Below, piece by piece: positions 43,475-43,612 of a DNA stretch of 55,170 bases. The stretch is from the NCBI GenBank assembly GCA_020432045.1, contig JAGQHB010000017.1, positions 1 to 55,170 on the forward strand, written 5' to 3'. Each line of letters starts with the position of its first letter. Position 1 is the first letter of the stretch. The notes beneath the pieces are model-generated. The model did not search any database, was not told the DNA's origin, and worked only from the letters and a program-made list of their open reading frames with translations. This stretch comes from Dehalococcoidia bacterium (GTDB lineage: Bacteria > Chloroflexota > Dehalococcoidia > Tepidiformales > Tepidiformaceae). Position numbers and translations under genes: made by a program.

Positions 43475-43506
43475 AAAAAACCCCCTGGCGAATCGATTCC
43501 AGGAGG
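43475..43506 (-). terminator. Intrinsic terminator (attenuator) in the leuA leader
   Basis: On the minus strand CCTCCTGG (43506-43499) pairs with CCAGGGGG (43488-43481), one pair being G-U, across a 10-nt loop. Six T residues (43480-43475) follow at once. It ends 58 nt before the leuA start codon, so it can stop transcription before the gene. Confidence 0.8.
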
Positions 43507-43510
43507 TTGC

Positions 43511-43537
43511 AGCGCGAGCACAGAGATAGCTCGCGCT
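43511..43537 (-). promoter_or_regulatory. Upstream hairpin of the leuA attenuator
   Basis: A perfect 9-bp stem (AGCGCGAGC with GCTCGCGCT) with a 9-nt loop begins at the last base of the leader-peptide stop codon and ends 4 nt before the terminator stem. It has the place of the 1:2 pause hairpin of classical attenuators. I could not find a convincing alternative antiterminator pairing. Confidence 0.6.
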
Positions 43538-43578
43538 CAGGTAAGAAGGAGAATGCCGGAGACAACTACAGAAGTCAC
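43537..43578 (-). CDS. leuA leader peptide with Val3-Ile-Leu3 control codons
   Basis: A 13-codon ORF, GTG start, encodes MTSVVVSGILLLT followed by TGA. Seven of its thirteen residues are branched-chain (GTA GTT GTC, ATT, CTC CTT CTT), and the three Leu codons lie two codons before the stop. It sits between a promoter-like sequence and the terminator hairpin. A ribosome stalled on the Leu codons would cover the first arm of the following hairpin. There is no ribosome-binding site; the predicted transcript begins at or next to the GTG, so translation would be leaderless. Confidence 0.72.
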   Translation of the reverse strand: MTSVVVSGILLLT

Positions 43579-43584
43579 TGTTCG

Positions 43585-43612
43585 AGAATACGGGATTATC
43601 GTTACACGTCAA
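43585..43612 (-). promoter_or_regulatory. Promoter of the leuA leader transcript
   Basis: On the minus strand TTGACG (43612-43607) and TATTCT (43590-43585) are 16 nt apart. Six bases (CGAACA) separate the -10 from the leader GTG, placing the start point at or within a base or two of that codon. Confidence 0.55.

Follow-up and report, generated by a model that had tools for sequence, protein, structure and literature searches.

A putative leucine attenuator upstream of leuA with a probably leaderless leader peptide, part of an RNA family found in Acidimicrobiia and Chloroflexota

In the trp, his and leu attenuators of Enterobacteria, the control codons of a leader peptide are followed by an intrinsic terminator and by an antiterminator with which that terminator is mutually exclusive; a third, mutually exclusive helix is what a classical attenuator requires. 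A survey from 2010 extended leader-peptide systems, until then known from Proteobacteria and Actinobacteria only, to Firmicutes (PMC2965389). Upstream of actinobacterial leuA lies the LEU element, which combines a leader peptide containing a run of Leu codons with a pseudoknot, has no terminator, and is proposed to act by pairing of the Leu codons with the Shine-Dalgarno sequence of leuA (Seliverstov et al. 2005, PMC1262725). LeuL1 of Streptomyces lividans is a leaderless Leu-run leader of leuA (PMC8079986), and antiterminator hairpin and terminator share just three nucleotides in the Corynebacterium glutamicum ilvBNC attenuator (PMC11857589). On attenuators of Chloroflexi or Acidimicrobiia, the literature searched, whose scope left out most subscription papers, held nothing relevant.

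The locus described here lies on the minus strand of a 55,170-nucleotide stretch of DNA from a Dehalococcoidia bacterium (GCA_020432045.1, contig JAGQHB010000017.1, positions 1 to 55,170), referred to in full as the window. The sole promoter-like site in 40000-46000 (43585-43612) consists of a –35 element TTGACG (43612-43607), a 16-nt spacer and a –10 element TATTCT (43590-43585). The –10 box ends 6 nt upstream of a GTG codon (43578-43576), so transcription is expected to begin at this codon or immediately beside it and the leader is probably leaderless. The leader ORF (43537-43578) encodes MTSVVVSGILLLT in the codons GTG ACT TCT GTA GTT GTC TCC GGC ATT CTC CTT CTT ACC TGA, in which CTC CTT CTT, numbered –4 to –2 when counted back from the stop codon, are the control codons. 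The final base of that stop codon is also the first base of hairpin 1 (43511-43537), a 9-bp helix with the arms AGCGCGAGC and GCTCGCGCT, and after a gap of 2 nt the intrinsic terminator (43475-43508) follows, made up of a 10-bp hairpin at 43508-43479 (arms AACCTCCTGG and CCAGGGGGTT) and six T residues at 43480-43475; both helices were recovered by folding and by covariation. The leuA gene (41719-43416) starts with an ATG at 43416, 58 nt downstream of the T-run, and encodes a 2-isopropylmalate synthase of 565 aa of the TIGR00970 / PRK03739 type that scores above the TIGR00970 cut-off. The initial annotation had listed promoter, leader ORF, 9-bp hairpin, six-T terminator and leuA in this order, and all were found so.

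The C. glutamicum ilvBNC attenuator is the nearest described system in logic, with its near-leaderless leader, branched-chain codons and terminator before the operon, but its leader, MTIIRLVVVTARRLP, has another register and its three-hairpin switch involves a real overlap, whereas in the window-type element the hairpins abut and no bases are exchanged. The Streptomyces leuS attenuator (LeuL2, MRAVRLLLSEPR) also joins a leaderless Leu-run peptide and a terminator to a leucine gene; it differs in that its Leu run lies further from the stop, at codons –7 to –5 where the window-type element has –4 to –2, and a classical antiterminator is predicted for it. With the enterobacterial attenuators the window-type element shares leader control codons and an intrinsic terminator, but its control codons lie upstream of hairpin 1 and not inside it, and no antiterminator is detectable.

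Comparison with relatives, which were picked by LeuA similarity and whose upstream regions were then read, shows which parts of this arrangement are kept. The same layout precedes leuA in 3/3 relatives that retain the window-type gene, so that every relative keeping this leuA keeps leader ORF and terminator, the opposite of the outcome which the initial annotation had named as refuting its reading. The leaders of these nearest relatives (MLKNAFGFLLLT, MSNVALSSLLLLT and MTRELAFGLLLLT) share Leu-Leu-Leu-X-stop. They do not share Val-Val-Val or Ile; of the Val-Val-Val / Ile / Leu-Leu-Leu peptide emphasised at first, only the Leu-Leu-Leu part is therefore conserved. The Val3/Ile stretch is private to the window genome, hence leucine is the amino acid predicted to be sensed, and the element is named a leucine attenuator because its Val and Ile codons are both unconserved and off the control positions. 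Nearly all sufficiently similar LeuA relatives with enough upstream DNA show the order start codon, Leu codons, one codon, stop, hairpin and terminator.

In total, 166 elements were collected, of which 111 non-redundant ones were used for detailed counts. Leu-Leu-Leu-X-stop falls at the same place in all but a handful of the 166, and at least 109/111 have LLL at codons –4 to –2; this register is partly circular because the first covariance models include the Leu codons. Start codons, –10 boxes and a leader-free model provide evidence independent of these built-in codons. Most of the 111 elements contain a leader ORF with a start codon downstream of a –10-like box, and in about 92 of them the best such box ends 5-10 nt, mostly 6-10 nt, upstream of the start codon. 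Codon –2 is CTT in 75/111, although CTT accounts for 6.8% of the Leu codons of the ORFs downstream; across the 166 elements this rare codon is the last of the Leu run in about two thirds, and codon –1 before the stop is mostly Thr or Met.

Covariance model searches recovered the element from 176/296 Acidimicrobiia-class genomes, from 35/396 sampled Actinomycetota, from 18/151 genomes in the class to which the fen Chloroflexi belong and from 8/350 Chloroflexota. The last span three families, two of which carry the layout before leuA besides the window's own family. Among 343 genomes of the window's class the model detects four true members, which are the genomes with window-type leuA among the relatives searched. 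In the LeuA tree, which does not resolve the deep order, the window and three other Dehalococcoidia-type genomes form a separate clade with the fen Chloroflexota, surrounded by actinobacterial sequences; that leuA and its leader travel together fits these data. No Rfam family, T-box and known leader RNAs included, matched at its curated score; anti-hemB, the best sub-threshold match (22.1 bits against a cut-off of 49.5), was rejected. As judged from these searches, the element is a widespread regulatory RNA family outside Rfam, and as far as the literature searched shows, Chloroflexota join the phyla with leader-peptide attenuation. The suggestion that such an attenuator would be new in Chloroflexota thus holds for that literature, but the element belongs to a larger family that is mostly of the Acidimicrobiia class.

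Several model matches were discarded. A fifth match in the window's class (L056, genome G153) had neither leader nor LeuA, a candidate second match in the window's own genome (L261) lacked a leader peptide, and L259, L260 and L277 had no convincing leader peptide or branched-chain gene; the sequence at L299 gave no clean reading. One metagenome-assembled genome, G357, contains leuA twice (L031/L069 and L061), each copy with its own attenuator.

The control codons change with the gene they precede. Upstream of window-type leuA there are 101 elements, and 55 precede another, distantly related leuA (TIGR00973); others lie before leuS, mostly with Leu codons, and before ilvB (LNLVLIT, VLILM). A third model, which begins two bases before the stop codon and carries no leader codons, recovered the same architecture before citramalate synthase, ilvB, leuB and leuS. 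The citramalate synthase leaders found with it end in IIIID, IIIID, IIIID, FIIID and EIIIN (III or IIII in 5/5); those at ilvB carry mixed Val, Leu and Ile codons (LVLID, VLLLIE, ILVVT, VLLIG, IVLR, ILVLQ), and those at leuB carry Val and Ile (VIVIP, VVVIS, IIVIL, IVVIP and similar). These codons match the pathway, since citramalate synthase makes the precursor of isoleucine and ilvB contributes to all three of Val, Leu and Ile. The citramalate synthase elements are, by their codons, isoleucine attenuators of the same architecture; the loci concerned (L251, L268, L270, L278, L283) have three or four Ile codons, one codon and the stop. The absence of Leu from the leuB control run was unexpected, LeuB being an enzyme of leucine synthesis, and perhaps reflects LeuB also serving the citramalate route to isoleucine. 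Val/Ile leaders of leuB occur in the Acidimicrobiia class at L246, L250, L252, L257, L258 and L266, and likewise at L267, L271, L275, L282 and L285.

Gene-matched codons in an unchanged RNA frame are the strongest evidence, at the level of comparative genomics, that translation of the codons is what is sensed, and this natural codon swapping reveals the amino acid sensed by each gene. The window element very probably attenuates leuA transcription in response to leucine through the ribosome that translates its leader peptide, which is itself probably leaderless. A ribosome-mediated leuA attenuator, as first suggested, is still the best reading, now supported by conservation and by the gene-matched control codons. 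When Leu-tRNA is scarce, the ribosome would stall on the Leu codons and leuA would be transcribed; when leucine is plentiful, the ribosome would reach the stop codon and transcription would end at 43475-43480.

An alignment of 33 elements contains exactly two helices, with both-sided changes in 10/15 pairs. When native partners were compared with swapped ones among the 111 members, hairpin 1 and the terminator gave z values of –28.6 and –24.9, and the terminator, with its covarying stem and T-tract, sits between leader ORF and gene. In a classical trp-type scheme, hairpin 1 would protect against an antiterminator formed between its own 3' arm and part of the terminator, either the 5' arm or the loop (e.g. 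GGUGC:GYGCC). Short complementarities of this kind are seen by eye in several members, and the antiterminator and terminator of C. glutamicum ilvB exchange only three nucleotides (PMC11857589), so that a pairing that is short, transient or species-specific could be imagined. However, the expected pairing, tested as hairpin 1 loop and 3' arm against terminator 5' arm and loop, was no stronger natively than between unrelated members, and if anything weaker (z +2.95), and none of 21 segment pairings beyond hairpin 1 and the terminator, tested by exchanging partners among the 111 members, revealed a covarying helix. Moreover, the region minus the 5' arm of hairpin 1 and the 3' arm of the terminator, folds like shuffles (mean z 0.04), and the Leu codons lie too far upstream, such that a stall at the first two cannot open hairpin 1. 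A trp-type switch is accordingly rather unlikely. The initial annotation had found no clean antiterminator in the window, and this absence extends to the whole family in the partner-swap and folding tests.

Individual candidates for an antiterminator were rejected for lack of covariation. These comprise the 3' arm of hairpin 1 with the terminator loop (GGUGC:GYGCC) and its 5' arm with the same loop, many terminator loops being too short for a duplex energy in swap tests of the loop only, and any pairing that draws on the leader upstream or on sequence downstream. A duplex between the Leu codons and the 3' arm of the terminator, which follows the Leu-codon/Shine-Dalgarno idea of the LEU element, was rejected likewise; although fairly strong at –10.1 kcal/mol, it was equalled by partners from other members.

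Hairpin 1 itself may provide the signal. With a ribosome footprint assumed to reach 13 nt downstream of the A site, which is an E. coli-like value, the median residual energy of hairpin 1 is –19.0, –15.5, –7.9, –2.6 and –0.8 kcal/mol for an A site at codons –4, –3, –2, –1 and the stop, respectively. Under this assumption a ribosome at the first Leu codon leaves the hairpin whole and one at the second almost so, whereas at the stop codon nothing of it remains. Because of these energies hairpin 1 would report the position of the ribosome, folded under starvation; for leucine shortage to turn leuA on, folded hairpin 1 must therefore oppose termination. The gap between hairpin 1 and the terminator has a median of 1 nt, is 0-5 nt in 109/111 and exactly 0 in 47. 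The proposal is that hairpin 1 is the ON signal: it stays folded while the ribosome is held at either of the first two Leu codons and, lying 0-5 nt from the terminator, hinders the terminator stem from closing in the exit channel of RNA polymerase, whereas a ribosome at the stop codon would melt hairpin 1 and leave the terminator free to close.

This switching step is the least certain part of the proposal, its chances being put a little below even. Steric hindrance is the simplest idea that dispenses with base-pair exchange, but hairpin 1 would be weakened as soon as the ribosome stalled at Leu codon three, which counts against it, and the literature searched held no precedent for an adjacent hairpin sterically gating a terminator. 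That a large family of amino-acid attenuators switches without an antiterminator, by a position-sensing hairpin that sterically blocks the abutting terminator, is thus put forward tentatively, as something short of an even bet. If true, it would give the correct logic without base-pair exchange, and an untranslated leader would lead to read-through and not to super-attenuation. With more than 100 members lacking an antiterminator, the question raised is whether juxtaposition of hairpins, rather than competition between them, can run an attenuator.

Hairpin 1 may, in addition, pause RNA polymerase and so keep it in step with the ribosome. Hairpin-stabilised pauses have a Y–1 G+1 element at a hairpin distance of 11-12 nt (PMC12288461); a G-Y-G motif follows hairpin 1 by 9-14 nt in 64/111 members, with Y most commonly at 11 nt (29/111), and this spacing suggests an extra synchronising role in many members; that the window element lacks the motif counts against it there. 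Taken further, hairpin 1 might be a pausing and synchronising device alone, with the ribosome acting on termination through its coupling to RNA polymerase and not through a competing or hindering RNA structure. The motif and its distance fit such a reading, yet not all members have the motif, the window element being among those without it, the abutment of hairpin 1 on the terminator is left unexplained, and pausing yields no leucine-dependent outcome by itself; it is considered improbable as the whole mechanism.

A LEU-type element of the kind proposed for actinobacterial leuA, in which the switch is protein-bound or works at the level of translation, would share with the window element the gene, the Leu-run leader peptide upstream of it and, probably, a leaderless transcript. 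The LEU elements before leuA in other Actinomycetota, however, have interleaved complementary arms and no terminator, whereas the window element has no pseudoknot, places its stop one codon after the Leu run and consists of two simple hairpins followed by a T-tract (a U-tract in the RNA), and those genomes are not among the matches listed for the attenuator model. This reading is very unlikely. Because the element shows neither a trp-type antiterminator nor the LEU pseudoknot, it is treated, on sequence grounds, as a variant of its own within leader-peptide attenuation, separate from the LEU element of Actinobacteria. A constitutive terminator behind a chance ORF would agree with the modest and only suggestive folding signal of the single window sequence (region MFE z = –2.5 against shuffles), but has next to no chance of being right, contradicted by conservation of the element, by a codon register that stays fixed across hundreds of genomes and by codons matched to the gene.

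A few further features of these loci were noted. Loci L288-L292, from other Actinomycetota, have LEU elements with interleaved arms before leuA and no window-type attenuator. Leaders of leuA in Pseudomonadales and other Gammaproteobacteria (L041, L046, L051) share CTGCTACGACTGCCGTTGTAGGCGGCC, a different conserved Leu leader. In the window, two genes for luciferase-like monooxygenases lie near leuA, at 36918-38171 on the minus and 44893-45897 on the plus strand, and a fused tetrapyrrole methylase/HemD gene (46164-47648) and a CbiX gene (48148-48891) are also present.
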